DNA of 64,000 bases, taken from assembly GCF_900182955.1 (NCBI RefSeq), contig NZ_FXUL01000004.1:1-64000 (forward strand), written 5' to 3'. The notes under the pieces are model-generated. The model was not told where the DNA came from, ran no database searches, and worked only from the letters and a program-made list of their open reading frames with translations. The translations under genes and the position numbers were made by a program. Of the stretch, positions 127 to 16,782 are shown one piece after another. This DNA is from Noviherbaspirillum suwonense (lineage in GTDB: Bacteria; Pseudomonadota; Gammaproteobacteria; Burkholderiales; Burkholderiaceae_D). How positions within the stretch are numbered: position 1 is the stretch's first letter; every line of letters begins with the position of its first letter.

Positions 127-256
127 CTACTTCACGGTCATCAGTTGCTGTCCGAGATCATCTTCAGCAAGCTGCTCTCCCAACTCATGCTCCATCCCCG
201 TAATCTGTTTGCTGAAATACGTGTAATGCGCCTGCAAGCGTTCAAGTTTTGATACC
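127..256 (-). pseudogene. IS110-family transposase fragment
   Basis: The minus strand encodes about 43 residues (SKLERLQAHYTYFSKQI ... DDLGQQLMTVK) matching the coiled-coil linker that precedes the C-terminal transposase domain of IS110-family DEDD transposases. The frame stops at 127 and the rest of the gene is missing on both sides. It abuts an IS5-family remnant on the opposite strand, so this is debris from insertion into older insertions. Confidence 0.55.
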
Positions 257-259
257 AGC

Positions 260-518
260 CCTGCTGGCGATAGTCGTGCACACCGCTTGGCCTTGGAGCA
301 ACGCGGCATTGACCACCAAATTGCCAAACGCCGAACTGCGCATGGCAGCAATCTTGGCAAGACCCGACGGGTGGTTGGACGCACTACCGCTTGGTTGCAT
401 CAATTTCGGCGACTGTGCGTACGCTACGAACGACTGCCCTCATTCATGAAGCATTCTTTCACTTGGGCTGCGCCCCTATTTGTTGGCGCATTTGAAAAAC
501 TCATTTTGTTAGATGCTC
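260..518 (+). pseudogene. IS5-family transposase C-terminal fragment with one element end
   Basis: Codons for DSRAHRLALEQRG followed by AKRRTAHGSNLGKTR and AWLHQFRRL are the C-terminal third of an IS5-family (IS427-like) DDE transposase, including the region of the catalytic Glu. The same protein sequence, slightly diverged, is encoded on the minus strand in the IS at 14793-15672. The fragment finishes in the terminal inverted repeat (about 492-518, ending gatgctc), which matches that other copy. The 5' two thirds are missing, replaced by IS110 debris, so it cannot transpose by itself. Confidence 0.75.
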
Positions 519-872
519 TTAATGTTTTTTCCTTACTTAGCGTTGACTTTTACTATTAAGCACACACTGAGCGGTGCTTTACCAGTTTCTGCAACAGCTT
601 TCGGCATAAATCAAACGACCATCCGTACAAGATATACCAAGCTATTTTTGTGCCGTCGCCGCACCGACTATAGTTGGAGTTTACTAGTCCCCAAAGCACC
701 TGGCACTTTTATATAACTTTGATGTAGCACAATTTAACAATTCTTTGGCGGGTCAAGATTAGTGCAGGCGGTAGATATTTAGTCGGTTCAGCTACGTAGT
801 GCTCGTTGTAAGGCGCAGGCACGATAACGTAAATTAGGCATTGCATAAGTCAAGATTAAGGAGACAGTTGTT
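519..872. other. Non-coding stretch between IS fragment and first island gene
   Basis: About 350 AT-rich bases with no ORF resembling a known protein. The only recognisable signal is a good ribosome binding site (aaggagac) directly before the gene at 873. The promoter of that gene must lie here, but no convincing -35/-10 pair could be picked out. Confidence 0.5.
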
Positions 873-1976: not shown

Positions 1977-2095
1977 CGGAAGCGACATCCGTTCCTCCTA
2001 CCTTACATAATAAGGTTGTGCAATTCATATTTGAAGCCGTTCTTGTCATAGAAATCATCGCTAAATCGTCAATTCTATTTCTAATTTAGGTTTAA

Positions 2096-2580
2096 TCATA
2101 GAAACACTTCCGTGTAAAACCAAGGGCTTAAATATCGGGCAACTAATCTCAAGCGTGGCAGCATCAATACCGAGGTGGATCTTGCGTCACTGGTGCCGGT
2201 GATCGGCGCCGTGCATTTTGTACTCCACTCACCTTTGTACAGCAACTTGATACCAGTGCTATCGACCAGCAAATGCAGACTGGTTACGGTAGGTGGTGCG
2301 ACTTCAATAGTGACTTGCCTAATGTCTTTTGCCCCCGGCTCACGGTACTGTAGTCGGAAACAGGCGAGGCCAGGCCTGCAAGGCCGAGCGGGCTTCGCCA
2401 CGCCCATTGTTGTTGATGAGGCAAGCTGAACGGGCGCTTGATGCTCAGGCAAAACTGGATCGCTTCGTCACTGAAACTCGCACTGCTGCCGCGCTTGCCG
2501 TTTGCCTAGCCATCCCAGTTCATGGCGTAATCGACCCTGATCAACCGCGAGCCGCGCGATTTTAACGCCACGCTGTACGC
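2096..2580 (-). pseudogene. Degenerate IS5-family (IS903-like) transposase
   Basis: On the minus strand the translation gives RLIRVDYAMNWDG, an in-frame TAG, then SSASFSDEAIQFCLSIKR, and after a frame change LHLLVDSTGIKL (around the first catalytic Asp) and GEWSTK. These are hallmark blocks of IS903-type transposases ('SDEAIQ', 'DSTGLKI'). At least one stop codon and two frameshifts break the gene and no intact C-terminus is present. It is a different IS5 subgroup from the copies at 260-518 and 14793-15672. Confidence 0.7.
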
Positions 2581-2997
2581 TCTCCGGTTCGTCGTTCAGT
2601 ATTCCAAGAGGGGCGGGTTGCATGCGCTCAGCATATCCAAGCCGCAGCCTATGGGCTGGACGGCATGATTTGCTTAACAAAACCCTTTAACATCATTTTC
2701 TCGCAAAAAAACGTTGTAAAAGAAAACTGAGGAACAAGCGTCCTAATTCGGCTTTTTTATGGATGCATAAATAACAAAACCATGTTAAGAAAAATATAAC
2801 AACAATCAAACTAAGTGTTTCACAGCCCGTTAAGCGTTGCCTGCTGTAATACCCTTCAGTCCAAGTTTTTGACTGACATCAAAATATGCAAGAAAAGAAA
2901 GAGCATTCTGAAAATACCATGAACGGCATCGCGGTTACGGCATGGCGAAACTTTTACAGCGAGAGACTAAATTTCGACATCTATCCAAGGAAGAATT
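2581..2997. other. AT-rich non-coding region upstream of the trypsin-like protease
   Basis: About 415 bases with no recognisable gene. The part next to the IS903-like remnant (2581-2690) may be more of its eroded end. A ribosome binding site (aaggaag) sits seven bases before the ATG at 2998. No clear promoter or terminator was identified. Confidence 0.45.
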
Positions 2998-3981
2998 ATG
3001 TCTAACGATAAAGACTTAGAAGGCGTTGACCATGAGGAATTACTTAAGGTGATTCGCTCACGGAACAAACCGCAAAAAGAAAACGGAAGTAGTACGGCTC
3101 TTACAAAAGAGAAAAATATAGCTGCGTCCGACATTCCAACGTTGTTGAAGGCGCTTAAAGCAAAGCAAAAAGTCATTTATGGCGTGGACGATCGCAAAGA
3201 CATGTATGAGGTGTCTGAAAAGAAATTTTTAGTTGACGCGGATAGCGTTGTAGCTTTATTCAAAGAAGACAAGGTCTTGGATAATTCAAACGGGACATCC
3301 ACGCTTATCACCGAAAGTTTCGGCATCTCCCATAACTTATGCAAAGAATCTAATGTGGCATTTTTTGATCAGCCAACAGGTGCTTTCTGCACGGGATTTT
3401 TGGTGGCTCCAGATATAATCGCTACAGCCGGACATTGCGTAACGACGAGCAATGTATCATCTATTAAATTTTTGTTCGGCTTTCGCGAAGCTATAAAGGG
3501 AAAACCGGAGACGGTTATTAATAATATTGAAATATATACGGGTACCGAAGTCATTGATATCAAAAACACACCAGATGCCGCAGATTGGGCGCTTATTCGT
3601 CTAGATCGTAGGGTAGAAAATCACCCTGTCGTTAAAATTCGTAGGAGTGGTAAAATACCAGATGGTCAATCCGTGCACGTCATTGGGCATCCCTCTGGAC
3701 TACCGGCAAAATTCGCTGACGGTGCCTTAGTTCGTGAAAATACACAAAACGAATATTTTGTCGCAAACCTCGATACTTTTGGTGGAAATTCCGGCTCACC
3801 CGTATTTAACAGTGACACCCACGAAGTTGAAGGAATACTCGTTCGCGGCGAGGCCGATTTTGAAACGCGTGGGACCTGCCTCATCCCGCTAGTCTGCCCA
3901 ACGACAGGCTGCCAAGGGGAACACTGCACACGAACAACCGAGTTTGGGCATTTGCTTACAAAAGAAGATAATCCTGGGTAA
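2998..3981 (+). CDS. Trypsin-like (chymotrypsin-fold) serine protease
   Basis: This 327-residue protein carries a full catalytic triad in family context: His146 in TAGHC, Asp196 in DAADWALIRL and Ser265 in GGNSGSPVF, with the usual spacing of V8/trypsin-like endopeptidases. Residues 1-115 form a charged N-terminal extension with no obvious signal peptide, which may be a propeptide or regulatory region. The C-terminus is Cys-rich (C294, C300, C305, C310), perhaps disulfide-bonded. There is no visible export signal, so either the protein acts in the cytoplasm or it uses an unrecognised route. It sits in the island near a subtilase and a CTQ-type maturation operon. A role in processing a product of that operon is a guess. 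Confidence 0.75.
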   Translation: MSNDKDLEGVDHEELLKVIRSRNKPQKENGSSTALTKEKNIAASDIPTLLKALKAKQKVIYGVDDRKDMYEVSEKKFLVDADSVVALFKEDKVLDNSNGTSTLITESFGISHNLCKESNVAFFDQPTGAFCTGFLVAPDIIATAGHCVTTSNVSSIKFLFGFREAIKGKPETVINNIEIYTGTEVIDIKNTPDAADWALIRLDRRVENHPVVKIRRSGKIPDGQSVHVIGHPSGLPAKFADGALVRENTQNEYFVANLDTFGGNSGSPVFNSDTHEVEGILVRGEADFETRGTCLIPLVCPTTGCQGEHCTRTTEFGHLLTKEDNPG

Positions 3982-4075
3982 CCAGCTAAATGCGGACAAG
4001 CGGTTGTGAGATCATACTCAGACGGTTAGTAATTATTAATAATTGGCCCGTACAAATTAAGCTTTAAAATTTGGA

Positions 4076-4131
4076 GGCAGCCGCAATCCTTCGGTAAGTT
4101 GTTAACCGGATCGTTGCGGTAGTACGCTGCC
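4076..4131. repeat. Imperfect long hairpin in a non-coding region
   Basis: GGCAGC (4076-4081) pairs with GCTGCC (4126-4131) and CCGCAA (4081-4086) with TTGCGG (4114-4119), with bulges between. The inner part can pair CGGT (4092-4095) with ACCG (4105-4108). It could be a structured RNA, a recombination site or an eroded IS end. It is not followed by a T-run, so a simple terminator is unlikely. Confidence 0.4.
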
Positions 4132-4601
4132 TGAAAGGCTGAAAGAAAACAAGCAGAAAAACGTTAAAACGGGGCAAGTACAGCTTTGTTAGACATATTT
4201 TCAATGTTGCTCGCGTAGAAATTGGTCGAACTCTTTTTAGGGAAAATTGCTAGCAGTCAAATAGTTTAGAGCGCGTGCCCAATTTAGTAAAATAAAACAC
4301 GAAACGACCCACTGAAATTTATAGAAAAGGAAAAGCGGTTGTTTCCAAGTCCGAACGTGAAGTCAATCAGAGATTTGACGGCGATCATAATAGCAATGTG
4401 GGGATATCTATTATTCGACTCCAACAGATGAATTGAATTTATATGATGCCAGTCCTCAATTGCCATCTTCCGTTGCACGATTTGGAATCTCAGTTAATAA
4501 CAGTCGTGCGTAGAAGCAAATCAATCAACGAAATAATGAAATTTTTTCGGTCTTGCTCAAACGTTGAATCTGCTAACTGCAGAAACTATTTTTTAAAAAG
4601 C

Positions 4602-4623
4602 AATCCGCCACAGCGGGTTTTTT
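4602..4623. terminator. Intrinsic terminator, probably bidirectional
   Basis: A 7-bp stem (AATCCGC / GCGGGTT, one T-G pair) with loop CACA is followed by TTTT on the plus strand and preceded by an A-run, giving a T-run on the minus strand. No intact gene lies immediately upstream on either side, so what it terminated is unknown. Confidence 0.6.
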
Positions 4624-4952
4624 CTATTCAATGTCGTGGAAGTAACGAGCTAACTTTTCAACTCACTTTAAGAATTATAGAATTTTCTGGTCAGAAGTTT
4701 GAGTTTCACTCATTAGAAATAGAACAGTGACCCTAAAAACAAATTGCATTCGATGCAGTCAGAGTCGATTATATGCAGATCTGCAGTCACAGCACTGGCA
4801 AACTTCATACCAAATCGTTGGAAGAAGACCCGGCTGTTATAGGTCATTCGGCCTGCTAAGATTTTTCTCCTATTGCAGTAAATGGCCCTGAAAGTTTGCG
4901 CGGCAGAACGCTGACAGGTCATCGGATTGGATAAAGTAAACGTTAAGGGAGA

Positions 4953-5085
4953 ATGACTACAAGCTACCTCCCTTACGACCCGCAGCAGCAGATGCTGTTG
5001 CCTTACGTCTTGCAAGAGTGGCTGCCCGAAGGGCATCGAGCTTATTACATCAGCGATACGGTGGGCACTCTGGACTTGACTTCTT
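4953..5085 (+). pseudogene. IS1182-family transposase, N-terminal fragment
   Basis: From an ATG with ribosome binding site aaggga, the translation MTTSYLPYDPQQQMLLP followed by LQEWLPEGHRAYY is the characteristic N-terminus of IS1182-family transposases. Homology stops around the codons for TLDL (about 5084), where the sequence changes into an IS3-family element on the other strand; a TAG follows a few codons later. Only about 44 of roughly 450-500 expected residues remain. Confidence 0.75.
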
Positions 5086-5858
5086 CGAGATTGTCAAACA
5101 GGTAGTGTGCCAGCAAGTCATTCCGGACTGTGCGGTTGTACCGTTCGATAGGCATTCTGCCGTAACTTATAGGGTTGGACGAATTCGATCTGAATGCCAC
5201 GCCGGCTTGCCCATGACATGAGAGCGCCGCTGACCTATTCAGGGCCGTTATCGCACCGAATCCTTTCGGGATGCCCTCGCCATTCCATGATGCGTTCTAG
5301 CGATCGGATCATCCGCTCGGACAGCAGCCAGAAGCCGACTTCGATTTCCAGGCCTACCCAGTTGAAATCATCAATCACATTGCACAGCCGGATACTGCGG
5401 CCGTTGACCAATTGGTCGTGCATGAAGTCAATCGACCAAACTTGATTGTCCGCCGTTGGCTCGGCCAGTGGCTTAGGCTTCTCCCGCACCAAGCGTTTCT
5501 TCGGCTTGATACGTAGATTTAGTTCCAATTGTTGATATATCCGATAGACACGTTTGTGATTCCAACGGTAACCCTTGACGTTATGTAGGTACTGGAAGCA
5601 CAAACCAAAGCCCGAGTTACGCTGGTTGGTCGTCAGGCAAATCAGCCAGTCGCCAATCTCACTGCTCTGCGACGACAGCTTGGCCTCATGCCAATAGCAG
5701 GTCTGACCAATGCCGAACGCCTCCCATACCGGCCGGATGCTGATTCCTTTGTCTCTTACTGCCTGTTGCGCCATTTCCCGCCGTCGAGATGGCGCTACCA
5801 CTTTTTTTTGCATGGCCTCAGCGATGATCTCTGCCTCCAGATGCTCCTCTTCGTACAT
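5085..5858 (-). pseudogene. IS3-family transposase orfB, broken
   Basis: The minus strand encodes the HTH_21-like region and the DDE integrase core ([38 protein letters not shown]) of an IS3-family orfB. An in-frame TAG follows GPE at about 5232. The next blocks (SGALMSWASRRGIQIEFVQP, then in another frame RNDLLAHYLFDNLEEV) show at least one further frameshift. The end joins the IS1182 fragment near 5085 and its terminal inverted repeat is missing. The transposase should be inactive. Confidence 0.8.
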
Positions 5859-5895
5859 CTTCTTCAGCCGCCGATTCTTCTTCCAACTCCTTCAT

Positions 5896-6060
5896 TCACC
5901 CCATCAAGGTGGCATCCATGCCGCCGAACTTATTGCGCCAGCGATAGAACAATGCTGACCTGATGCCTTGCTCTCGGCACAGTTCTGAAATTGGAGTGCC
6001 GGCTTCTGCCTGTTCGAGAATGGTAATGATCTGGCTTTCCGAAAAGCGCGACTTCTTCAT
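5896..6060 (-). pseudogene. IS3-family orfA
   Basis: MKKSRFSESQIITILEQAEA and GIRSALFYRWRNKFGGM form the helix-turn-helix orfA typical of IS3-family elements. The frame ends early at a TGA (5896-5898). The expected leucine-zipper continuation (MKELEEE) follows in the next codons but is then frameshifted before orfB. It is the upstream partner of the broken orfB at 5085-5858 and was once joined to it by programmed -1 frameshifting. It lies just downstream of the convergent end of the subtilase gene. Confidence 0.75.
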
Positions 6061-6139
6061 GTACAACTTCCCCGTTTCTAATTGGAGAAAACTCTACTTT
6101 CAAATCCGCTTACTTTTCCGAGGTTACCTTGGTACGAAA

Positions 6140-7432
6140 TTATGGCGCTTTTACCATCCCGGCACCTACATCAAAAACATCGAAGCCTTGCACCAAATCT
6201 GTCGTAGTGGCTGAACCAATTATTTTACTCGTCAGCAAAAGACCATTAAACATGCCCTCTGTTTTCAACTTTTCTGCCCAAAGCGCTCCAATACCAGCTA
6301 CATGAGGAGCCGCCATACTCGTACCACTTAGCTTATGTCGCCCGCCGCCTAATTTTGATGAAACAATATCGAACCCGGGCGCGCAAATGTTCGGGCCAGT
6401 ATTTGAAAATGGAGCAACCGCATACCTACGTCGGCCCTCCGTATAAATTGGCATAAAAGCGCCAACAGAAATCACACTTTCTGCTGCGGCGGGCGGAGAC
6501 ACCGCAACCTCGAAATTAGAATCAATTTGCCTCTCGCTCTCGTTACCTGCAGATGCAACTATGATAGTCGGATTTCCTAAACCAGCCCGTGCCTTGATGA
6601 ACGCCGCCATTTTATCAAAAAGATTTATGTTTGCTCTGTAGGCTTCAAGTGCCCTCGAAAAAGCGATCTGTTTCGGCAGGCCGTTGCGTTCTAATTCAAG
6701 GGCCAAAGCTGGGAAATCAAAGCCAACAGACATACAAATGATCGTCGCTCCTCGTTCAGCTGCCCAATACATGGCGTTTAAAACATTTTCACTAGACGCC
6801 CCGTCTTTGCCGATCACCTTAGCAATTAACGCAGTTTGTACGCCTGGTGCTACTGAAATTCTAGAGCCCTCGTGTGCCCTGCCAAAAATTATTCCAGCAC
6901 AATGGGTTCCATGTCCATCAGTATCGCCATTTCCTTCACCAGTGAAATCATTCTCTATAATGTCAATACCTTTAAAATCCTCGTGTTTGGCATCAATCCC
7001 GCTGTCAAGAACCGCTACAGTAATACCTTGACCTGTGTATTTTGATGTGCCAGCACCAGTCGCCTCTATTCCCCATTCAAAAAAATCATGCTTCCTTGCT
7101 GAAAGCACTTTTCCGGGCGACTCAATACTAGCAGTAAACCTTTTTATTTGTGCTTTTGTCAACGGTCGAAGAAGTTTCATAGGCATGTCTGGCGCAATTG
7201 CAAGAACACCCGGATCCCTTGCAAGAATGCCGAGTTTAGACCTTGGGATCATCTTGGTTTCAACCGCAATCCTGTCGTCAGCGAGTAAAGGAGAAGCTGC
7301 TGAAATCAAAACTTGTCCTACGTTACCCTTGAAAAACTGAGTCTCACTAGGTAATGAAAACGAGGGTCCAGAAAACATGTTATGTTTAAAAGCAGGTTTT
7401 AAGCGCAAAATAATATGACTAGTTTCTTTCAT
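6140..7432 (-). CDS. Subtilisin-like (S8) serine protease
   Basis: This 430-residue protein (start at ATG 7430-7432; an upstream TTG at 7444 is possible) has the complete subtilase signature: Asp143 in AVLDSGID, His174 in DGHGTHCAG, oxyanion Asn297 in ASAGNES and Ser372 in SGTSMAAPHVAG. Residues 1-115 resemble an inhibitor-type propeptide (VLAIAPDMPMKLLRP). No signal peptide is visible, so it is probably an intracellular subtilase. It is divergent from the quinoprotein-like operon across about 550 bases. In the quinohaemoprotein amine dehydrogenase (Qhp) system a subtilase, QhpE, removes the leader of the cofactor-bearing subunit. An analogous role here is an inference from context. Confidence 0.85.
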   Translation of the reverse strand: MKETSHIILRLKPAFKHNMFSGPSFSLPSETQFFKGNVGQVLISAASPLLADDRIAVETKMIPRSKLGILARDPGVLAIAPDMPMKLLRPLTKAQIKRFTASIESPGKVLSARKHDFFEWGIEATGAGTSKYTGQGITVAVLDSGIDAKHEDFKGIDIIENDFTGEGNGDTDGHGTHCAGIIFGRAHEGSRISVAPGVQTALIAKVIGKDGASSENVLNAMYWAAERGATIICMSVGFDFPALALELERNGLPKQIAFSRALEAYRANINLFDKMAAFIKARAGLGNPTIIVASAGNESERQIDSNFEVAVSPPAAAESVISVGAFMPIYTEGRRRYAVAPFSNTGPNICAPGFDIVSSKLGGGRHKLSGTSMAAPHVAGIGALWAEKLKTEGMFNGLLLTSKIIGSATTTDLVQGFDVFDVGAGMVKAP

Positions 7433-7985
7433 TCCATACCCCAAGTCAACTCTTTAAACAACTGATAACATAAAGAGAGCATCGTGCGAGTAGAAGATGT
7501 TCGCAATTAATTGCTCATCCTGCACCGACCGCTGCAAAATTAAGTCCGAAGTTTTATTGATAGTGTGTGCGTCTATAAATCAAACCTTAATGCTCGTTTT
7601 GTATAAATTCACCATTAGAAGCAGGGTTGCAGCTTCACGCGCCGATCAGCACAAGTAGGACCGCAATACAAAAATGAATGATGTGCCGATATCATAAGCA
7701 TGATTTGTGGAATATCAAAGTCGAGCACAGGTTAAGGATTCTAATAAGGGTTCGGTACTCGAGATTTGACGAAACAGAGTAGCTGTCAAGCCGTCCTCGA
7801 CCAATGACCATCACCACACTTTCAAAAATGGATTAATGCATTATCGGTTTTTTAGAGGGAATGGGATTCTTCTAACTTATGTTCGCAGCGCTTTCATAGG
7901 TACGAGATTCAGCACAAACGAAACTTGCTATTTGGAAAATAATTCTTGTTAATAAACTAGATTTAAACATGCAAGGATATAACTT
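7433..7985. other. Divergent intergenic region between subtilase and the CTQ-like operon
   Basis: About 550 AT-rich bases without a plausible gene. It must contain the promoters of the minus-strand subtilase and the plus-strand operon. AaGGAt before the ATG at 7986 is the operon's first ribosome binding site. No unambiguous promoter pair or operator palindrome could be assigned by eye. Confidence 0.5.
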
Positions 7986-9437
7986 ATGAGAGCTCGAACT
8001 CGACGGCAAATTCATTTGCTAATAGATCAAGACATTGGTCAATTAGTCTTGAAACACGGTTTGAATAAAGAGAGTAGTTTAGACGACAGGTCGCAACGTT
8101 TTCCTTCGGAGTTTGGTGCGCACCAATACGTGGTTATGTTACTGCACGTTGCGGCCGAAATTGAGCACATGCTAATGGTTCAATACCTTTATGCAGCTTA
8201 CTCGCTAGGGGGCGATCAAGTTCCAGAACGGTATAGAAGAAAAGTTGCATCATGGCAATCAACGATCCTTGGAATAGCGAAAGAGGAAATGGCACACCTC
8301 ATGACTGTGCAAAACGTGCTGCGGTGTATCGGGGGACCGCTAAATTTCGACAGGGAAGATTACCCATCTTATTCAGAACTGTACCCATTTCCTTTTCTTC
8401 TAGAGCCGCTGACACGTACCTCACTTGCAAAATATGTTTATGCTGAAGCGCCTGATCCCGATAGCTGGAGTGGGCAAGAGGCAGATGAGATAAGGGAAAT
8501 TATCCAAGATGGAGATGGCACTCCCTATCTAAATCGCGTCGGTAAGGTTTATAAGGAGATTATTGACATAATCCAAGACGAGCATGCTCTAGAAGACAAA
8601 TACTTTAGAGACACTACGCATTCTTTCCAAAGTAACTGGGATGAATGGGGAAGAGGATATGCAAACGGTGAAAGACGTAATCCGGAAGCACAAGATCCAG
8701 AGGGATCTCCTAGCCTGATCCTACGTCCGGTTTCTTCCCGTTCCGATGCAGTTTCTGCTTTAAATGCAATTGCAGTGCAAGGGGAAGCCAATTCCGTGAA
8801 TGCTTCTGAGGCAAAATCACACTTTGCTAGATTTCTTAATATATACCGGGATTTTCCGGACAGAAAAGACTGGATCCCAACAAGAAATGTAGTAATCAAT
8901 CCATCGGTGTCACCCGTAGACTTAAGAAATTCCGACACCAATCAACTGCCGACAAGCACGATTACACATCCAATAAGCAAGCTTTGGGGCAACCTTTTTA
9001 ATATTCGCTACCGCATTCTCCTCTCGAGTTTAGCTCATAGCTACGATTACCGTAATGACACCTCAATGTCGAGTTCAGTATCACCTCGAGGACTTTTAAT
9101 TCATACAACATTTGGGGAAATGTACAACATTCGCTCGATTTCCGGAATACTGATTCAGTCTCCAGTGTCTACAGACAATGACCAAGAGATGGCTGGGCCA
9201 CCTTTTCAAATGCCGTACACACTAACACTGCCTCATGATCCGGTTGATCGATGGGCTCTTTATCTCGACCTATTTAGCGCTTCGATTGATATCTCATTCC
9301 GTTTGAAAAAAGTCGTAGACGCGCGCCATCGGAGCTTTTTAGATGTACTTATCTCCACTGACCAGAAAGCCTTGACGAAAATTGAAGCTTTGATCAATAG
9401 CTTGATAACAGTATCTCGTACGACTGACCTAACTTAA
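7986..9437 (+). CDS. Ferritin-like domain protein (VioB/iminophenyl-pyruvate dimer synthase-type domain)
   Basis: First gene of the five-gene operon, 483 residues. Residues about 44-125 match the ferritin-like domain found in VioB/RebD-like proteins: HVAAEIEHMLMVQYLYA (Glu58, Glu60, His61) and AKEEMAHLMTVQNVL (Glu100/101, His104) give the two E-x2-H-type helix motifs of a four-helix di-metal bundle, followed by the conserved IGGPLNF. The C-terminal half (about 230-483) is not recognised. A metal-dependent oxidative role, or electron or oxygen handling for the downstream quinoprotein-like partner, fits the fold but is not shown. Its stop is 16 bases before the next start. Confidence 0.7.
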   Translation: MRARTRRQIHLLIDQDIGQLVLKHGLNKESSLDDRSQRFPSEFGAHQYVVMLLHVAAEIEHMLMVQYLYAAYSLGGDQVPERYRRKVASWQSTILGIAKEEMAHLMTVQNVLRCIGGPLNFDREDYPSYSELYPFPFLLEPLTRTSLAKYVYAEAPDPDSWSGQEADEIREIIQDGDGTPYLNRVGKVYKEIIDIIQDEHALEDKYFRDTTHSFQSNWDEWGRGYANGERRNPEAQDPEGSPSLILRPVSSRSDAVSALNAIAVQGEANSVNASEAKSHFARFLNIYRDFPDRKDWIPTRNVVINPSVSPVDLRNSDTNQLPTSTITHPISKLWGNLFNIRYRILLSSLAHSYDYRNDTSMSSSVSPRGLLIHTTFGEMYNIRSISGILIQSPVSTDNDQEMAGPPFQMPYTLTLPHDPVDRWALYLDLFSASIDISFRLKKVVDARHRSFLDVLISTDQKALTKIEALINSLITVSRTTDLT

Positions 9438-9453
9438 ACTACTGGTGACGAAC

Positions 9454-10839
9454 ATGGCTATTGTAGGACTTCGGCTACTACCGTCGATGGCGATTGGACG
9501 ATTTGGCTCATCGGAACATCCTCTTGAGGCGTACGAATTACGCTTCGACGAAAATGATCCGTTGGGTTACCGGAAGATTGTTCCAAAGACGACGTTTAAC
9601 ATTGACCATCAGACCGGCGAAGTAATAAACGCATATATACCGCGTAATATAAAGTTTAGAGACGGCTTTCAAATACGCCCTGTTGCGCCTTTTATAGAAG
9701 TTTTCGCGCTTATTTCGGACGGGACATTGGTGCCGCTTACATACTCGCTGCTCGAAGCAGAGGGTCTTGGGTTACAAAATATCGAGTGGAATGTTAACGT
9801 TGGCAACTTGAAAGTATTTCGCCAAACTGGCGATCAAAATGATAAGGTTCTTAGCAAGACAGGATCTTTTAATGATTTTGAACTGCATAAGCTTAACGGA
9901 ATATGCGCCAATTTTTTGGAAGGCAAATCTATTGATTTCGGAAGTGTAAGGTTTATAAAACCGACGCTAAAATTTCCAGAGATCCGTTTAAGATTTATCC
10001 CTCCAGCGGGTCTTGTCTACGGCTCCAGTACGCTGCGATATAACATGGATGAAAATAAAGATGTCATAGATCCGGTTTTTGTAGGTAAAGAAGAAAGGAT
10101 CGTCTATGACACATCGCGAGGTAAATGGCGTGGGTTTGGTAAAGATAATGAAGCGTCGTCCACCCATCATCCGACCAGCCCTGGCGACATTTACCATGGA
10201 TACTGGCCGGACTGGAATGGGCGGCCCATTAGTTGGGGTTATTTAGATGATGTATGCGACGGGCCCGTTACGATAAAGCTTTCACGTAATGATGGAACTA
10301 CACTTCGTGCGCAAGCTTGGATTAGCTCAGCCATGCCTACATTTGCGCCCGATTCGCTCCCCCTTAGGACCGTTGCCGATGAACTTGAGCAGCTTATTTT
10401 GGGTCCTGATGTGGCGGATGAAGAAGTATCAATTCAGTCGGCCGCTGAGATTGTACGCCGAGCACTTGAGTCAATTCGCTTCATGAACACAACGGTTATG
10501 AACGGCAATGTGGTCAGTGGAAGGTCAAATATTGCGCGAACATTAGGTACGCAAGATACAAGCAACTTTGGCCGAGAGTATGAACCGATTATGGCTCAAT
10601 CACTAGTAGACAATTTCGGGGTGATTGCTTTGCATGAACGCATCTACTCTTCTCTCCTAAGCGGCTCGGCGCCGTGGTTTGCCGATGTATTGCGACGGCC
10701 AGAAGAGGTCGGTGATCTTAGCGATAAGGGTAGGAGGAAAATGCCACCTATGTTACGAGGCGCGGATGGTCGCGCGCTTACCTTGACCAGACGACAAATC
10801 AGCCAGGTGGTTAGGGCTGCAGTGCGCGGACTACTTTAG
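9454..10839 (+). CDS. LodA/GoxA-like protein, N-terminal part of a split CTQ oxidase
   Basis: 461 residues from ATG 9454, with GGTGA as ribosome binding site; a GTG at 9445 is an alternative. Landmarks of the LodA/GoxA family appear in order: LLPSMAIGRFGSS (family pattern 'P-x-IGIARxGxS'), a QIRPVAPFIEVF block ('KRQAARFRVF'), IEWNVNVGNLK ('WTVHLANKKA'), LDDVCDGPVT ('YDDTSDGPVTA') and a C-terminal segment MPPMLRGADGRALTLTRRQ ('MP-x-L ... LTLTPTQY'). The protein ends there, before the region that carries the cofactor in LodA. That region is encoded by the next gene, 14 bases downstream. Together the two proteins are about 730 residues, close to a full-length LodA. No signal peptide is visible. 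I infer that the two associate. Confidence 0.7.
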   Translation: MAIVGLRLLPSMAIGRFGSSEHPLEAYELRFDENDPLGYRKIVPKTTFNIDHQTGEVINAYIPRNIKFRDGFQIRPVAPFIEVFALISDGTLVPLTYSLLEAEGLGLQNIEWNVNVGNLKVFRQTGDQNDKVLSKTGSFNDFELHKLNGICANFLEGKSIDFGSVRFIKPTLKFPEIRLRFIPPAGLVYGSSTLRYNMDENKDVIDPVFVGKEERIVYDTSRGKWRGFGKDNEASSTHHPTSPGDIYHGYWPDWNGRPISWGYLDDVCDGPVTIKLSRNDGTTLRAQAWISSAMPTFAPDSLPLRTVADELEQLILGPDVADEEVSIQSAAEIVRRALESIRFMNTTVMNGNVVSGRSNIARTLGTQDTSNFGREYEPIMAQSLVDNFGVIALHERIYSSLLSGSAPWFADVLRRPEEVGDLSDKGRRKMPPMLRGADGRALTLTRRQISQVVRAAVRGLL

Positions 10840-10853
10840 CAGCGATAGGATAA

Positions 10854-11669
10854 ATGAAAATGGATCCAAAAATCGAACCAAAGAACCGTATGGCACAATT
10901 GTTGCACCTTTCCGCTGGAAATCCAGCAAGTACTCTGCCGACATCTACGATTTCAAATTGTTTCCCTGGACTAGAGTATGACTTCAAGAATTTTTGGCGA
11001 CGTGCATTCGTTGGGATAGTTATGTTAGAAGGCGATAATTATGTATCTGAAGTTACGGACACAAATTATGCTGGGCTAAAGTCGCACCGTTTGCTCAGAG
11101 TTGATGATATCGACATAGTTGTTCCAGTTTTCGGGCCTCGGATTCCGGAGGGTCGTGCGGTGCTCCTTCCTTCTTATGAAAATCCCGGTCTAGTAGCGAT
11201 AGAATGGTCCAACGCATTAGCATATGCCATGCAAAATCAAGGGAAAACTGTAAAGTGTTTCTTTAGTATTGAGGAGGAGGAGCTTCCAGTCCCTTTGCCC
11301 GCTGACTCTAACGCACTTCTTGAAGTTGAAATGGTGGTTCGCGTAATGTTTGAAGATGAGTCGGGCGAATTTGCCCATGAATTACTGGAACCAGGCGAAT
11401 TAACTCAAGGTCTGTGCTCCCCATGGCAACATGACTACCGTGAATGTTCTTGCTACTACTGGCCAGCAAGCCGCCCTGACTTCGTGAATGTAGTTCCTGC
11501 CGAAAACGGAAGAAGTCGTGGCGATAATTGGATTTCACGCAACCGAACAGGGGAATATATTTTAGATGACAGAAAGGACAGTCGCTTGGTAACTTATGAT
11601 GAACTATTCCAAAGGTGGGAAGAGATGCTCCGCTTCCAAGTTGAAGGAAAAGATGGAGAGGAGACTTAG
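10854..11669 (+). CDS. LodA/GoxA-like protein, C-terminal cofactor-bearing part of a split CTQ oxidase
   Basis: 271 residues. SNCFPGLEYDFKNFWRR (35-51) matches the 'FPGLEFDxRN' block of LodA-like oxidases. GELTQGLCSPWQHDYREC with a following WPASRPD (181-209) matches 'GDLTxxMxxPWQADFxxC ... WWPAQRPD'. LodA forms cysteine tryptophylquinone from a Cys four residues after a catalytic Asp, plus a Trp near the C-terminus. The equivalents here would be Asp194, Cys198 and Trp255 (FQRWEEMLRF). Additional cysteines are C36, C135, C188 and C200. Expected chemistry is oxidation of an amine or amino acid with O2, but the substrate cannot be read. The stop is two bases before the radical SAM gene, so the two are translationally close. 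Confidence 0.7.
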   Translation: MKMDPKIEPKNRMAQLLHLSAGNPASTLPTSTISNCFPGLEYDFKNFWRRAFVGIVMLEGDNYVSEVTDTNYAGLKSHRLLRVDDIDIVVPVFGPRIPEGRAVLLPSYENPGLVAIEWSNALAYAMQNQGKTVKCFFSIEEEELPVPLPADSNALLEVEMVVRVMFEDESGEFAHELLEPGELTQGLCSPWQHDYRECSCYYWPASRPDFVNVVPAENGRSRGDNWISRNRTGEYILDDRKDSRLVTYDELFQRWEEMLRFQVEGKDGEET

Positions 11670-11671
11670 CA

Positions 11672-13054
11672 ATGTTAAACGAGCATCCTGTAATCCGGGT
11701 TCGGAAAGCTAGTAAAGAAGAATTACAAACATCCCAGAGCGTGAACAGCTGCAAATCGAGACATGCACACTGGCAGAGATATGGAGGTCAAGGCCAGCTA
11801 CTTGTTGTTAATGGTACCCAGTTATTCGACGTCGATGATGAGATACTGGATAGGCTAGATGTGGCAGCTCAAAATGGCGATCAAGCAGTTGAGGATGTCC
11901 TGCGTAACTTAAATCTTCTTACTCCTCCGCTGATTACTGATGAACCGCTTACTAATCCTAAGCTTCGTGCGTTATCGCTAGCGGTTGCTCAAAAGTGCAA
12001 TATGGGCTGTTCCTACTGTTACGCGAGTCAGGGCAATTTTGGTAGCGATGATAAAAGCATGACATGGGACACAGCGCGGAGAGCCGTAGATCTTTTATTT
12101 GAGGACATTAAAGCAGGCGAAAATGTTAATCTTGCTTTCTTGGGAGGTGAGCCGCTTTTTAACCGCGTTGTCATCCAGGCTGTTACTAAATACGCTGCGA
12201 ATCTTGCCGAAAAGCGTGGAGTGAAAGCTGGTTTTTCGCTCACGACGAACGGCACACTTCTTAACGACAATGATGCATCATTTTTTGAAGAGTATGGCTT
12301 CGCCGTAACTATAAGTTTAGACGGCTTAAAGGAAGAGCATGATAAGCGAAGGACTTTTAAAAATGGCAAGGGCAGTTTCGATCAGATTATCAAGCGTGTA
12401 GAACCTTTGCTTTCGTTACAAAATCGAATGCAAGTGTCGGTGCGAGCTACTGTCTGTCCTGGTAACACACGTCTCAAAGAAGCGGTAAATAATTTTCTTG
12501 ACGTTGGATTCCACTCGGTTGGGCTTTCGCCGGTCCTTCACTCTCCAGATGGGATTGGCGAAATGACCCAAGCTGACTTCGATCAACTTCTTGCAGAAAT
12601 GATAGATTGCGGACATGAGTTTGAATTAAGAACATTACGAGGCAATCAATACGCTTTTAGCAATATTATCAATGCACTCAATGAGATCCACAGGGGCACT
12701 CATCGACCATATCCCTGTGGTGCCGGCGCGGGATACCTAGGCGTGTCTGCGGATGGCAATCTTGCCGCGTGCCATAGGTTTGTCGGAGACCCGATAGGAA
12801 AAATGGGGAGTTTAGAAGACGGTATTGATGAGACAAAACGTAATATTTGGCTTGCTACCAGACACGTCCATAAACAGATGCCATGCACCAACTGTTGGGC
12901 TCGCTATCTTTGCTCCGGTGGCTGCCATCATGAAGTAATTGCCCGAGGGCGACCAGCATGTGATTTCATCCGTGGTTGGCTTGAATATTGTTTGCAGGCC
13001 TATGGGAGACTTTCGTCACTGCAACCTGACTGGTTTAATTATCCTAGCCGGTAA
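11672..13054 (+). CDS. QhpD-type radical SAM/SPASM peptide maturase
   Basis: 460 residues. The 4Fe-4S/SAM motif is C109-x3-C113-x2-C116 (KCNMGCSYCYA), followed by AFLGGEPL, SLTTNGTLL and ISLDG, the usual radical SAM core strands. A Cys-rich SPASM region follows (C349, C367, C405, C408, C414, C418, C430, C440), indicating auxiliary Fe-S clusters. Core and spacing closely resemble QhpD, the enzyme that forms Cys-to-Asp/Glu thioether crosslinks in the small subunit of quinohaemoprotein amine dehydrogenase. Here no QhpC-like subunit and no c-type haem (CxxCH) protein is present, so the likely substrate is the Cys-containing LodA-like protein encoded two bases upstream. That assignment is inference. 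Confidence 0.85.
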   Translation: MLNEHPVIRVRKASKEELQTSQSVNSCKSRHAHWQRYGGQGQLLVVNGTQLFDVDDEILDRLDVAAQNGDQAVEDVLRNLNLLTPPLITDEPLTNPKLRALSLAVAQKCNMGCSYCYASQGNFGSDDKSMTWDTARRAVDLLFEDIKAGENVNLAFLGGEPLFNRVVIQAVTKYAANLAEKRGVKAGFSLTTNGTLLNDNDASFFEEYGFAVTISLDGLKEEHDKRRTFKNGKGSFDQIIKRVEPLLSLQNRMQVSVRATVCPGNTRLKEAVNNFLDVGFHSVGLSPVLHSPDGIGEMTQADFDQLLAEMIDCGHEFELRTLRGNQYAFSNIINALNEIHRGTHRPYPCGAGAGYLGVSADGNLAACHRFVGDPIGKMGSLEDGIDETKRNIWLATRHVHKQMPCTNCWARYLCSGGCHHEVIARGRPACDFIRGWLEYCLQAYGRLSSLQPDWFNYPSR

Positions 13055-13068
13055 GTAAACTGAATTGG

Positions 13069-14487
13069 ATGACAATGCAAGGTTTTGATGTTTGTGTTAT
13101 TGGCGGTGGCCCCTCCGGCTGCATTACTGCTCTTAGCCTTGCAATTCGTGGAGTACATGTCTGTGTGATTGAAAAATACGTGCCTTCGGACGCCCGTTCA
13201 TTCGAATCACTTACCGACGGGATTTGGCCAGTCCTCGACGCTATTGGAATACGCGAATCGTTCCTAAAAGCTGCGCTGTTGAACTTTAGTCCCAAAATTG
13301 TTCTTTGGGAGAACGCCGCCGAGCCTGATGTTAATTTCTTCAATAACGACGTCAGCATGATTGTCGATCGCTCCCGATTTAATGAATTTTTTTTAAAGTC
13401 ACTTCAGGATTTTGGTGTGGCAGTGTTTCGCCCGGCAATTGTCACCCGAACTAAGTATTCGACACTTGGATGGGAAGTGGATCTATCGGTTTACGGAAAA
13501 AGTTCGCGAATTTCTAGTCGATTTGTTGTTGACGCATGCGGAAAGAGCGGTTTCTTACCTCAAAAGAAAACACGTAATTCACCGCGAACGATAGCGCTTT
13601 GTGGAACGCTTCAGAATTCAGACAGTTCACCTATGACGTACGTTGAGGCTTTTCCGCAAGCTTGGTGTTGGGGTAGTTCGCTTCCTAATAAGGGACTTAC
13701 CGTAATGATGTTCTCCGATTCTGATACCTTTAATTTGTCCTCAAAGAGAGAAATAGAAGAGAAATGGCGGTCAGCCCTATCTCAGTCAAAGTTTTTTTCA
13801 AAGTTTTCCAGCTGTCCTTTGTCACAAAATTTAATTCTGCGAAATGCGACAGCTTATTGCGTCGCCGATCCGCTGCAGGACAGTTATATTAAGGTAGGAG
13901 ATGCTTCTTTTAGCTTAGATCCATTGTCGTCTAGCGGGGTAGAGAAGGCAATGCATACTGGATTAACGGCAAGTGCAGTTATTCGTACGATATTAAATAA
14001 GCCGGCGCGTTTGGATTTGTGCAAAAAGTTTTACTGTGATTACCAATCTGAAACTATTGCAATGCATATTTTTTGGGCGACCAGCTCGTATGCGAAGGTG
14101 AAACGTTTCGATGAATCTCCATTTTGGAAGTCGAGATCCGTTTCCCATATTCGTGCCATCGCGCCTCGCCAAAACGATATCGAATTTGGAAAAGTATGTG
14201 ATATAAAAAATGACACTTTTTTTCAGTTTTCAAAAAACACAAAGTTTGAGAAAAGGCCATGTATTATCGATAGTATGGTTTGTGAAAATACTGTTCTGGT
14301 TCACCCCAATTTGGCTCGTCCCATTGCTTTTGTGAGCGGTGTGGACGTGGATCGTCTTTTCCCGCGTTTTACGGACCGTATCAATGCGATAGGACTGCTA
14401 CGTTATTGGGCGGAAAATTTTCCTTCTGTGAACGGTGTGCGAACAGCCGCCTGGCTTTTAACGAATCAAGTTATGGAAGTCAGTTAA
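13069..14487 (+). CDS. LodB/QhpG-type FAD-dependent oxidoreductase
   Basis: 472 residues, last gene of the operon. The N-terminus has a Rossmann FAD motif (GGGPSG, Gly12/14/17, with Glu35 at the end of strand 2). GDASFSLDPLSSSG (277-290) is the second FAD-contacting motif of the halogenase/monooxygenase group containing LodB and QhpG. Those proteins hydroxylate the Trp precursor during CTQ formation in LodA and QhpC. The tryptophan-halogenase Lys and WxWxIP signatures were not seen, so chlorination is unlikely. Context next to the split LodA-like pair fits a cofactor-maturation role. An alternative start is ATG 13075. Confidence 0.8.
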   Translation: MTMQGFDVCVIGGGPSGCITALSLAIRGVHVCVIEKYVPSDARSFESLTDGIWPVLDAIGIRESFLKAALLNFSPKIVLWENAAEPDVNFFNNDVSMIVDRSRFNEFFLKSLQDFGVAVFRPAIVTRTKYSTLGWEVDLSVYGKSSRISSRFVVDACGKSGFLPQKKTRNSPRTIALCGTLQNSDSSPMTYVEAFPQAWCWGSSLPNKGLTVMMFSDSDTFNLSSKREIEEKWRSALSQSKFFSKFSSCPLSQNLILRNATAYCVADPLQDSYIKVGDASFSLDPLSSSGVEKAMHTGLTASAVIRTILNKPARLDLCKKFYCDYQSETIAMHIFWATSSYAKVKRFDESPFWKSRSVSHIRAIAPRQNDIEFGKVCDIKNDTFFQFSKNTKFEKRPCIIDSMVCENTVLVHPNLARPIAFVSGVDVDRLFPRFTDRINAIGLLRYWAENFPSVNGVRTAAWLLTNQVMEVS

Positions 14488-14614
14488 CTAGTCGTCCATG
14501 CAAATCTCTAAAAGCCTTTTGACCACAAGGAGTTAGCCGCTAGTTCTCTGATCCTGATCCCTAAGAACTAGCATAAGCCCTAGTGAAACCTGAGGGAGAT
14601 GGGGAGCATTGCAG

Positions 14615-14720
14615 ATGGCAACTGACGATTTTTTCCGAGCCAGGCGCGACCAGATGGTCGATTTGCGACATCCGCTTTCCGTATTGGCAGGCCGGCTGCA
14701 GGGGTGGCTCCGGAAATTCG
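14615..14720 (+). pseudogene. IS5-family transposase N-terminal fragment
   Basis: From an ATG with ribosome binding site ggggag, MATDDFFRARRDQMVDLRHP and LSVLAGRL match the N-terminal domain found in one group of IS5-like transposases ('DDFFRARLDQMIDLRHPLAVLA'). Homology is lost soon after and the gene stops by about 14760. It is truncated directly before the next IS. Confidence 0.6.
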
Positions 14721-14792
14721 AACAGTTGGATAATTGGAGACCTTGCGGTGAGATAACCTGAGTTCTGTGGACATTCCCGTTTGATAAACTAA

Positions 14793-15672
14793 GAGCGCCT
14801 AACAAAATGAGTTTTTCAAAATGCGCCAGCAAATAAGGGCGCAGCCTAAGTGAAAAAATGCTTCTTGAATCGAGGGCAGTCGTTCGTAGCGTACGCGCAG
14901 TCGCCGAAATTGATGCAACCAGGCGATCGTGCGTTCAACGACCCATCGGGTCGTGCCAAGATTGCTGCCATGCGCCGCTCGACGCTTGGCAATTTGGTGG
15001 CCGATGCCGCGTTGCTCCAGTGCCAAACGATGGGCGCGACTATCGTAGGCACGATCGGCTTGAACGGACTTGGGCTTTTTCAACGGCCACCCGCGTTTTC
15101 CTCGAATTGGGTAGACGCCATCGACCAATGGCAGGAGCTGCGTGACATCAGGCCGGTTAGCCTTGGTCAGAATGACATTGACCGGGATGCCTTGCGCATC
15201 GACGAGCAAAGGGTGCTTGCGGCTCGCCTTACAGCGAATGGTTGGGTTCGGTCTAGTTTTTTCCGCCATGCCCAGCCCGTACCGATGAACTGTCGGCAAC
15301 GACACGGGAGAAATCGAGCTTGTCGGCGCCACGCAGTTTATCCGGCAGCACACGGTGCAGCTTGCGCCACACTCCGGCCTTTTGCCAGGCATGCACCCGG
15401 CGCCAGCAGGTCAAACCGGAGCCGCACCCCATTTCTTGGAGCAGCATTTACCATGGAATTCCCGACTGCAAAACAAACAGGATGCCCGTCAGGACGCGCC
15501 TATCGTCCAGCGGCTTGCGGCCAGGAGGCGTCCTGCGCCGCCGCCTGACTGGAAGCAGTGGCTAGACTATTTCCACAATGCATCATCAACCAGTTCGCGT
15601 GCCATATTGCCTCGCCACGATATATATCGACGAGTTGCTATGACAGTAAAAATCCCATTTTGTTAGATGCTC
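14793..15672. mobile_element. IS5-family (IS427-like) insertion sequence, complete in length but decayed
   Basis: The ends form imperfect inverted repeats: gagcgcctaacaaaatga at the left and its near-complement (cccattttgttagatgctc) at the right. A 3-bp duplication TAA (14790-14792 and 15673-15675) flanks the element, as expected for this group. Length is 880 bp. Its transposase is disrupted (see the pseudogene inside). A fragment of a close relative in the opposite orientation sits at 260-518, so the two bracket most of the island. Confidence 0.8.
14821..15604 (-). pseudogene. IS5-family (IS427-like) transposase, multiply interrupted
   Basis: Starts at ATG 15602-15604 (MARELVDDALWK), hits TAG at 15567-15569 and after a frame change continues GRKPLDDRRVLTGILFVL. 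It meets TAA at 15448-15450, then continues EMGCGSGLTCWRR, VVADSSSVRAG, and in the next frame DAQGIPVNVILTKANRPD, ADRAYDSRA and WVVERTIAWLHQFRRL. The DDE residues are recognisable. One frame change could be the normal programmed frameshift of this group, but the two stops mean it is inactive. Confidence 0.8.
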
Positions 15673-15990
15673 TAAGACAAATCGCCTCGGCTTATTGCGC
15701 CCACCCAGGCCGACACGCTTTAGCGTTTATTTCAATAACCAGATGACGCTTGAAAAAATATAAATATGCAGTCAAGTGCGTATTATGAAGCAACTACATC
15801 ACGTTATATACCATTGTTTTTTATTGCTAACTCAGTCAGTCAGTCAGTTAGGGTACAATTTTTACCTGTCATAAGGGTTCGAGTCCCTCTGGGCAGGCCA
15901 GGCTCCCGCTTTCATTCGTTCATCCTCCCGGCACTTCTGTTATTTCCGTCATTGGCGCGCCATCGATTGCGCCTTTGTCATCCGGCATGC
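15673..15990. other. Island-to-core transition without genes
   Basis: Composition changes here from AT-rich island DNA to GC-rich core. It contains a run of four CAGT units (15833-15848) and a tRNA-3'-end-like remnant (15866-15900). No ORF is convincing. Confidence 0.55.
15866..15900 (+). repeat. tRNA 3'-end-like remnant, candidate attachment site
   Basis: GGGTTCGAGTCCC (15875-15887) has the sequence of a T-arm with loop TTCGAGT, and the segment closes with a CCA at 15898-15900. There is no matching 5' half upstream, so it is not a functional tRNA. Integrating elements commonly leave such a duplicated 3' end at their border, and it lies exactly where the base composition changes. No integrase gene is seen in the window. 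The parent tRNA was not identified. Confidence 0.5.
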
Positions 15991-16209
15991 TCATCCGGAT
16001 TTTTGCCGGCCCGGCGGATTCCTGAACGGCACGTCGCTGCGCGCTGCAACGACCGCGTCCGGCGCGCATTCCTGCAGGTCGCGCAACCGGCGATTGATCT
16101 CGCTGAGTCTCAGGAATACTTCCCGCTTTTCATCGAACAGCGACCGTGCCTGGCTGTAGGCGTCAGTCATCCGTATTTGTTCAACCTGCAGATAGCGATC
16201 ATTTGCCAT
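15991..16209 (-). CDS. Small hypothetical protein
   Basis: 72 residues, start at ATG 16207-16209 with a ggtggag ribosome binding site. It is hydrophilic and probably largely helical (SQARSLFDEKREVFLRLSEI), ending in a basic, Pro-rich tail. No family is recognised. It is the first gene on the core side of the boundary, so it could belong to either part, though its GC-rich codon use points to the core. Confidence 0.5.
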   Translation of the reverse strand: MANDRYLQVEQIRMTDAYSQARSLFDEKREVFLRLSEINRRLRDLQECAPDAVVAARSDVPFRNPPGRQKSG

Positions 16210-16368
16210 TGTGCGAACTCCACCAATTTGGTTCCATGGGATAGGCCCAAGTATAAATGGTGAGTTTATCAATAGATTGTGCAAATTCAAGCGGGATAAA
16301 TTATAGAAAATAAGTATCAAAACGATTAAGAATACTTATTGCGAGGCGGGTATCCCGCTGCCTGCCGC

Positions 16369-16782
16369 TCAGGCGATGGCAGCCTGGTCGAGGTAGAAGG
16401 TGCGACGCCATTCAAGCGCCTGCTGGGCATGATAGGTAAGCAGATCGTGCAGTATCTGCGGGTCGGCGCTGACCAGCTTCAGCGTGCTGATCAGGACGAT
16501 ACGACCAGTCGCCGGCGCCATGCTGAAAGCAGCGCTTCCGCTGGCCAGCTGCAGGTAATTGGCATTGAGCAGCTGCCTGTAAATGTCGGCGCCGCCTGCC
16601 TCGGGAACGAGGCCGAAGTCGATATAGCAATGCAGGGTGTCCGGCCTGAGGGCATGGAGATGGATCAGCGTGCAGTCGATGCCATCGACGCGGAAGGAAG
16701 CACCATCGGCAATGGCCCCGGCGTGACCGTGGCCGGCGATCCTGCAAAATTCCTGTACGAGCCTGCGATAAGCTTGTTGCAC
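16369..16782 (-). CDS. CesT/Tir-chaperone-like protein (type III secretion chaperone fold)
   Basis: 137 residues with the small acidic alpha/beta layout of class I type III secretion chaperones: a helix (YRRLVQEFCRIAG), a beta section (ASFRVDGIDCTLIHLHA, LHCYIDFGLVPE), a helix (IYRQLLNANYLQL), further strands (AAFSMAPATGRIVLISTL) and a C-terminal helix (ALEWRRTF). No secretion apparatus or effector is nearby. Related orphan CesT-like proteins occur in Burkholderiales, so it may have a secretion-independent role. No catalytic motif is expected. Confidence 0.6.
   Translation of the reverse strand: MQQAYRRLVQEFCRIAGHGHAGAIADGASFRVDGIDCTLIHLHALRPDTLHCYIDFGLVPEAGGADIYRQLLNANYLQLASGSAAFSMAPATGRIVLISTLKLVSADPQILHDLLTYHAQQALEWRRTFYLDQAAIA

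Follow-up and report, generated by a model that had tools for sequence, protein, structure and literature searches.

We analyzed a stretch of 64,000 nucleotides of Noviherbaspirillum suwonense (contig NZ_FXUL01000004.1, hereafter the window) that carries, at positions 7986-14487 of the + strand, an operon of five genes, P1 to P5. This mobile operon probably encodes a tryptophylquinone oxidase with the LodA/GoxA fold, whose cofactor would be matured by chemistry of the QhpD/QhpG type. We observed the genes and their conservation, a cofactor motif, the fold of a relative and the co-occurrence of these features. The genes and the motif are located as follows.

7986-9437, + strand: P1, ferritin-like protein of 483 amino acids (PF12902, 113 bits, cut-off 22.3)
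9445-10839, + strand: P2, LodA/GoxA-like N-terminal part, 464 amino acids from the GTG at 9445 or 461 from the ATG at 9454
10854-11669, + strand: P3, LodA-like C-terminal part of 271 amino acids with the predicted cofactor core
11415-11480, + strand: predicted cofactor core, P3 Cys188, Asp194, Cys198, Cys200, Trp203 and Asp209
11672-13054, + strand: P4, QhpD-like radical S-adenosylmethionine (SAM)/SPASM enzyme of 460 amino acids
13069-14487, + strand: P5, QhpG-type FAD monooxygenase of 472 amino acids

All five open reading frames are intact and complete, keep their conserved residues and are separated by 7 (16 from the ATG of P2), 14, 2 and 14 bases, which confirmed the tight spacing (2-16 bases) described in an earlier note on this DNA. 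That note had recognized a ferritin-like protein, two LodA-like halves, a QhpD-type radical SAM enzyme and a flavoprotein in one operon, identities borne out by profiles and by the fold of a relative. In the profile searches that it had suggested, the PF12902 and QhpG models were passed, the QhpD and LodB models were not, and the LodA_N and LodA_C models of Pfam were below or at their cut-offs. P2 scored 18.7 bits on LodA_N (cut-off 26.3) and, on the NCBIfam equivalog models, 31.1 bits for GoxA (5.4e-8 over residues 265-325, far under the cut-off of 750) and 18.8 bits for LodA (cut-off 600). P3 scored 24.6 bits on LodA_C (cut-off 25), the same stretch reaching 25.2 bits, above the cut-off, in another scan. 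Profile-profile comparison aligned P3 with 17 LodA-like C-termini (96%, E 3.4e-9; such E-values for P3, LodA-like proteins and QhpC are those of single pairwise comparisons). The fold predicted for a relative in which P2 and P3 are fused (L013; alignment of 18 rows, predicted local distance difference test score, pLDDT, of 58) matched those of GoxA and LodA.

The C-terminal sequence of P3 (...GELTQGLCSPWQHDYRECSCYYWPASRPDFVN...) contains the pattern C188-x5-D194-x3-C198-x-C200-x2-W203-x5-D209, whose three cysteines are invariant in the alignment of the P3 family (17 rows). Asp194, Cys198 and Trp203 aligned with LodA Asp512 and Cys516, both within PWQADFFNC, and with Trp581, the second Trp of YWWPP. 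In LodA, Cys516 and Trp581 form cysteine tryptophylquinone (CTQ). The bonds reported for QhpC are Cys37-Trp43 (CTQ), Cys7-Glu16, Cys27-Asp33 and Cys41-Asp49 (PMC8172795). P3 Cys188 lies six residues before Asp194, as Cys27 does before Asp33, with the putative CTQ cysteine, Cys198, four residues after Asp194; Cys200 precedes Trp203 as does Cys41 of QhpC, and Asp209 follows Trp203 by six residues, as does Asp49. The core thus joins the cofactor residues of LodA to a pair of added cysteines, which occupy positions where QhpD makes two of its three crosslinks in QhpC. From these positions we predict Cys188-Asp194 and Cys200-Asp209 thioethers and a Cys198-Trp203 tryptophylquinone. The earlier view that a QhpC-like small subunit is absent was thus right for a separate QhpC, PF08992 (QH-AmDH_gamma) having no match at E 1e-3 across the whole genome of this organism, but it overlooked the QhpC-like core, with both extra cysteines, inside P3. 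That the operon is not a standard quinohaemoprotein amine dehydrogenase (QHNDH) was upheld: P3 reached only 15.1 bits on PF08992 (cut-off 25), and none of the five proteins contains CxxCH, the sole such motif in frames of at least 100 amino acids at positions 1-16500 being on the opposite strand inside P3. For the di-haem QhpA and the beta-propeller QhpB, the analysis covered this motif, which is absent from the sense strand of the five genes.

The neighbourhood survey that the note had suggested showed that the operon order recurs in many phyla. A contig scan with P4 alone retrieved 19 loci, 18 of which show the gene order P1, P2/P3, P4, P5, with P1 of L010 and P5 of L020 cut off by contig ends; the 19th, L018, is a cut contig of 3.3 kb with P4 and P5 only and was kept out of the motif and gene-order counts. 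The hosts were Bacteroidota genera and one genome each of Verrucomicrobiia, Bryobacterales and Gemmatimonadaceae. In the bacterial family of the window, the P3 profile matched 22 of 392 genomes, 15 of them (that of the window included) with a full P3 (E <2e-124); one match (G202) was not fetched and was left out. The same gene order was found in all 14 other full-P3 loci of the family, P4 being in two frames in L048. Loci with the arrangement of the window (type A) amounted to 34 with L099 and to 39 after plasmid additions. Among plasmid records, 19 had a P3 match; the eight opened, from Mycetohabitans, Bradyrhizobium, Mesorhizobium, two Rhizobium, Embleya, Streptomyces and Nostoc, spanned three phyla and comprised five loci of type A or near it and three of a second type (type B, see below). 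L105 and L109 lack an adjacent P1, and L110, with only parts of P1 and P2, was counted for P3 and P4 only. L048 and L110 may reflect decay or sequence errors, and L110 may be degraded. Full-length P3 was present in 1/247 Bacteroidota, 2/149 Acidobacteriota and 1/96 Verrucomicrobiota genomes, each count including the genome on which the search was centred, so that the family is rare in these samples. When frames of at least 90 amino acids in the flanks of 33 type A loci (L020 excluded) were clustered, no cluster beyond the five genes covered more than 5 of the 15 genus labels; the largest consisted mostly of frames antisense to P4 and the next of LysR-type regulators. A role in defence was rejected, PADLOC giving only viperin-type radical SAM matches for P4 (best 59 bits) and none for the other four proteins. 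In the NCBI annotation of the plasmid records, the oxidase halves appear as "hypothetical protein" and the flavoprotein as "tryptophan 7-halogenase" or "FAD-dependent monooxygenase", which hides the class in public annotation. The operon is a conserved class, of which we found no description in the literature searched (most subscription journals lie outside it). The new maturation class that the earlier note had thought possible was retained as a conserved class; the note had missed its key core motif.

In type B, the order is P2, radical SAM gene, then P3 fused to a ferritin-like domain. This arrangement was found in three genomes of the same family (L051-L053) and on plasmids of Streptomyces, Nostoc and Rhizobium (L106-L108), hence in Pseudomonadota, Actinomycetota and Cyanobacteriota, one genome (G312) holding both types. 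The single type B protein scanned, that of L052, scored 42.3 bits on PF12902 (cut-off 22.3), and the annotation of the three plasmid proteins calls them ferritin-like. Since this domain is fused to the quinone half, it would work with the oxidase, and the ferritin-like gene seems integral to the unit. Five acidic or His positions of P1 are compatible with a candidate metal site: Glu60, Glu101 and His104 are kept in 37/37 type A rows and Glu154 and His279 in 36/37, and all five in 6/6 type B and 2/2 LodA-associated rows. Against sequences of the Protein Data Bank (PDB), P1 had no match better than E 0.34. L109 also encodes, at 1620-4349 of its - strand, a ferritin-like protein of 909 amino acids, the C-terminal part of which is related to neighbours of the LodA loci L055, L056, L074, L076 and L101.

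The full core pattern, C-x5-D-x3-C-x-C-x2-W-x5-D, was present in all 39 type A and all 6 type B loci (45/45 with a QhpD-like gene) and was missing from all 17 LodA-like loci that lack such a gene, the lack of the gene being judged inside the fetched stretch. Frames totalling 1.34 million residues contained it 45 times, each time in P3, and five residue-shuffled passes gave no occurrence. At six residues before the Asp, all 17 LodA-like proteins lack a cysteine (16 computed, L077 by eye); the 14 in which the interval from the CTQ cysteine to the Trp was measured have none there either, and none is visible by eye in the other three. Only the 18 first-scan loci were found via P4 alone; the same-family, type B and plasmid loci were retrieved with P3 itself, which rewards the core motif, and the P3 proteins of the two types are related in profile-profile comparison, so that 45/45 does not stand for 45 independent events. 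The two QHNDH loci miss the strict pattern because the spacing of QhpC differs; L102 has a radical SAM enzyme at the QhpD level (639.8 bits), but no QhpC was found there by pattern. A survey of the phylum for LodA loci matched 12 of 349 genomes, the twelfth being that of the window; each of the other 11 loci has a flavoprotein gene and none has this kind of radical SAM gene (L073 has a radical SAM frame of 65 bits several kb away). L059 and L100 hold LodA-like proteins with the same short Cys-to-Trp spacing together with ferritin-like and LodB-like genes, and neither a QhpD-like gene nor the extra cysteines were found within the fetched stretch; L059 carries a different radical SAM gene. Tyrosinase genes lie beside the operon in L105 and L109, with a multicopper oxidase gene in L105, and relatives of these genes are found near the ordinary LodA loci L075 and L078. 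A Bradyrhizobium lodA operon with such neighbours is described in PMC4417212.

The three radical SAM and seven SPASM cysteines were kept in 32/32 type A, 3/3 type B and 3/3 QhpD rows (L018, L020, L048 and L073 not counted), with 52-60% identity of P4 between loci. Despite these conserved cluster cysteines, P4 is separate from QhpD by score level: on TIGR03906, seven type A proteins scored 299-325 bits, one type B protein 256 and QhpD-level proteins 640-780, and one Bryobacterales genome has enzymes of both levels. The radical SAM tree (without L020 and L048) had very long outgroup branches and did not settle the order of type A, type B and true QhpD. Turning to the flavoprotein, which had been called LodB/QhpG-type, the QhpG part of that description held (335 bits on NF049967, cut-off 240) and the LodB part did not (139 bits, with 114 for GoxB; cut-offs 400 each). 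The best PDB match of P5 was 7ctq, the peptidyl tryptophan dihydroxylase QhpG (1.8e-20). In the flavoprotein tree (L020 left out), 34 type A rows and one QhpG row were separated from 17 LodB and 2 type B rows with maximal support (Shimodaira-Hasegawa-like approximate likelihood ratio test, SH-aLRT, 100). Of the QhpG residues listed in PMC7876137, P5 keeps Glu42 and Trp183, has Lys for Arg70 and does not keep Arg47 and Arg314; the retained Glu and Trp do not discriminate, since the LodB-like protein of L059 has a similar pair. As the curated model places P5 with QhpG, maturation would seem to rely on a QhpD plus QhpG pair and not on the LodB strategy joined to QhpD, the combination that had been proposed.

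In the maturation that we infer, with its bonds, order of steps, recognition and substrate, P2 and P3 would form a quinoprotein oxidase of the LodA/GoxA superfamily acting on amines or amino acids. P3 would be the cofactor precursor, with Cys198 and Trp203 (LodA Cys516 and Trp581; QhpC Cys37 and Trp43) next to Asp194 (LodA Asp512; QhpC Asp33). P4 would form the Cys188-Asp194 and Cys200-Asp209 thioethers, as QhpD does on Cys27-Asp33 and Cys41-Asp49 of QhpC. It presumably recognizes P3 without a cleaved leader such as the 28-residue peptide of QhpC, because the core lies 188 residues into the protein and the unit has no QhpE-type protease. P5 would next hydroxylate Trp203, twice if it is QhpG-like, as its QhpG type leads us to expect, and closure of the Cys198-Trp203 bond would give CTQ. 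P1, as a partner that binds metal, would act with the oxidase once this is mature and may deal with the imine or hydrogen peroxide that the oxidase produces. According to PMC7876137, QhpC is modified by QhpD and QhpG within a ternary complex, both oxygens being added by QhpG, whereas LodB and GoxB meet a mono-hydroxylated Trp.

Several observations weigh against maturation by QhpD/QhpG-type chemistry. Around the core, the quality of the structure model is low (pLDDT 26-44). The third QhpC pair, Cys7-Glu16, has no counterpart in P3, and the spacing differs from that of QhpC by one residue in two places (Cys to Trp 5, not 6; second Cys to Asp 9, not 8). Comparison of the P3 and QhpC profiles was not significant (1.7%, E 0.029, with only 4 QhpC rows), so that their likeness is limited to the motif, and homology beyond it was rejected as none was detected. 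P4 remained below the QhpD equivalog cut-off (324.7 against 453 bits), with the PapB model scoring near (279.5). The QhpG assignment rests on one model, on which no true QhpG was scored, and on a tree in which one row on a long branch represents QhpG; P5 shares only 23-30% identity with the P5 of other loci. The type B flavoproteins scanned on the QhpG model were far under the cut-off (84.5, 56.1 and 61.1 bits); the matches downstream in L052, L053, L106 and L108 are weak, in L107 a FAD-like frame lies upstream in the opposite orientation, and no flavoprotein was detected in L051. Separately, a short motif is common to ordinary LodA-like C-termini (17 rows) and QhpC (4 rows), with a profile E of 1.7e-4 and a probability of 49%, a hint that the two CTQ sites have one ancestor or converged strongly.

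P4 could instead install another crosslink, from Cys to Tyr201 or Tyr202 or the Cys-Trp bond itself, with P5 acting like LodB, and there would then be no CTQ with two Cys-Asp bridges. The sequence C-x-C-Y-Y-W in place of the C-x3-C-W-W of the QhpC sequences in qhp loci, together with the shifts in spacing, is in keeping with this, and SPASM enzymes of several chemistries score on P4. We nevertheless consider it unlikely, the Asp acceptors being invariant at QhpC-like positions in all 45 loci and the best P4 matches, QhpD and PapB, being both makers of Cys-Asp thioethers (PMC8172795). We regard as less likely again that the extra cysteines form a metal site or a disulfide, that P4 has another substrate and that P5 alone matures a LodA-like P2/P3. 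Pairs of cysteines can indeed bind metals, and LodA and GoxA depend on flavoproteins, LodB and GoxB respectively, the first Trp hydroxylation being thought autocatalytic (PMC7876137). Yet P4 and the cysteine pair occur together in every locus of both gene orders, neither cysteine is found in the 17 LodA-like loci without such an enzyme, and no small precursor recurs in the flanks among frames of at least 90 amino acids, shorter ones not having been examined.

The two-piece oxidase, part of the class proposed in the earlier note, is not its defining trait: P2 and P3 are fused in all 18 first-scan loci and separate in the window and in the 14 other loci of its family. The split requires at least two changes within type A on the 34-locus tree, or three in a count of 26 rows (L110 left out, L048 absent from the tree), and type B is likewise two-piece. 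The two-piece state is thus secondary and not class-defining. The frames of P2 and P3 overlap slightly in these 14 relatives, eight having TGATG behind AGGAG and six a candidate ATG for P3 7-10 bases before the end of the P2 stop, so that a sequencing error as the source of the split was rejected. That the island is decaying or misassembled, with a frameshift artefact and no functional operon, is very improbable: the contig start, the G+C content, the transposase frames and the weak ribosome-site-like AGGAT that is all the window has at its P2/P3 junction would suit it, but the five frames are intact with their conserved residues, and the same separation recurs in these relatives.

The relatives from the same family grouped with Bacteroidota to the exclusion of the window copy (SH-aLRT 99; bootstrap 100 and SH-aLRT 99 in a second tree). 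This placement, the G+C content of 46% at positions 1-16000, at the contig start, against 65% in the rest of the window, and the IS3- and IS5-type frames point to a separate horizontal arrival of the operon of the window. The other features of this stretch are the following.

873-1976, + strand: FMP-type heme-binding protein (NF040572, 284 bits, cut-off 150)
2998-3981, + strand: trypsin-like protease
5235-5858: IS3-type transposase frame, below the model cut-off
6140-7444, - strand: divergent S8 protease
14799-15392: IS5-type transposase frame

The S8 protease was rejected as a QhpE (29.8 bits, cut-off 165), and it has no relative in the other loci (E 1e-3; E 1e-6). Scores on the QhpE model refer to the window and not to the other loci; an annotated S8 peptidase lies in L109, some 3 kb past the gene of the flavoprotein. 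The trypsin-like protease is 49% identical to one directly upstream of the type B operon of Rhizobium sophoriradicis (L108) and, over 124 residues, 60% identical to a protease that precedes the type A operon of Bradyrhizobium (L104) and is truncated by the locus edge; these two loci also have a C25 peptidase and a small protein in common. Relatives of the FMP-type protein lie beside the ordinary LodA loci L074 and L056.

Compared with LodA/LodB (L-lysine 6-oxidase) and GoxA/GoxB (glycine oxidase), the operon is alike in the predicted fold of its fused relative, in the Asp-x3-Cys and Trp cofactor residues and in an adjoining flavoprotein maturase; it differs in the two extra cysteines, the QhpD-like enzyme, the QhpG-type flavoprotein, an oxidase often in two chains and scores under the curated equivalog cut-offs. 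With QHNDH, where QhpC is accompanied by QhpD, QhpE and QhpG, it shares the residues of two of three QhpD-made crosslinks and the CTQ Cys and Trp, with one-residue shifts in spacing at two places, and the QhpD-like and QhpG-type enzymes; it has no separate QhpC, CxxCH protein or QhpE-level protease, and its core is embedded in an oxidase fold. PapB, which forms Cys-Asp beta-carbon thioethers in the ranthipeptide freyrasin (PMC8172795), is a radical SAM relative that acts on a small peptide, whereas the presumed substrate of P4 is a large enzyme. In the fungal group V of LodA-like proteins (BMC Genomics 2015), lodA-like, lodB-like and PF12902 genes also stand together (PMC4417212), but "Radical SAM" is absent from the main text of that paper. 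P1 partly resembles VioB, the iminophenyl-pyruvate dimer synthase (3.3e-11), although only residues 33-159 align and the score of 41.7 bits is far from the TIGR04492 cut-off of 1250. VioB is thought to use the imine and hydrogen peroxide produced by VioA. More tentatively, the operon might represent a third tryptophylquinone class, with QhpC-type Cys-Asp bridges in a LodA/GoxA-fold oxidase, a leaderless QhpD-like enzyme, a QhpG-type dihydroxylase and a ferritin-like protein as an integral catalytic subunit using imine and hydrogen peroxide.

The tryptophylquinone routes of QHNDH and of LodA/GoxA have been presented as markedly divergent strategies that evolved convergently (PMC7876137). The P3 family unites features of both in one protein, so that the relation between the two routes becomes directly testable. 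It raises the questions of what Cys-Asp bridges do to the formation of the quinone in an oxidase, whether double hydroxylation of the QhpG type replaces the first step, thought autocatalytic, of LodA, and by what means a QhpD-like enzyme recognizes a substrate of this size. The operon would thus link two systems that have until now been presented as independent answers to one problem.

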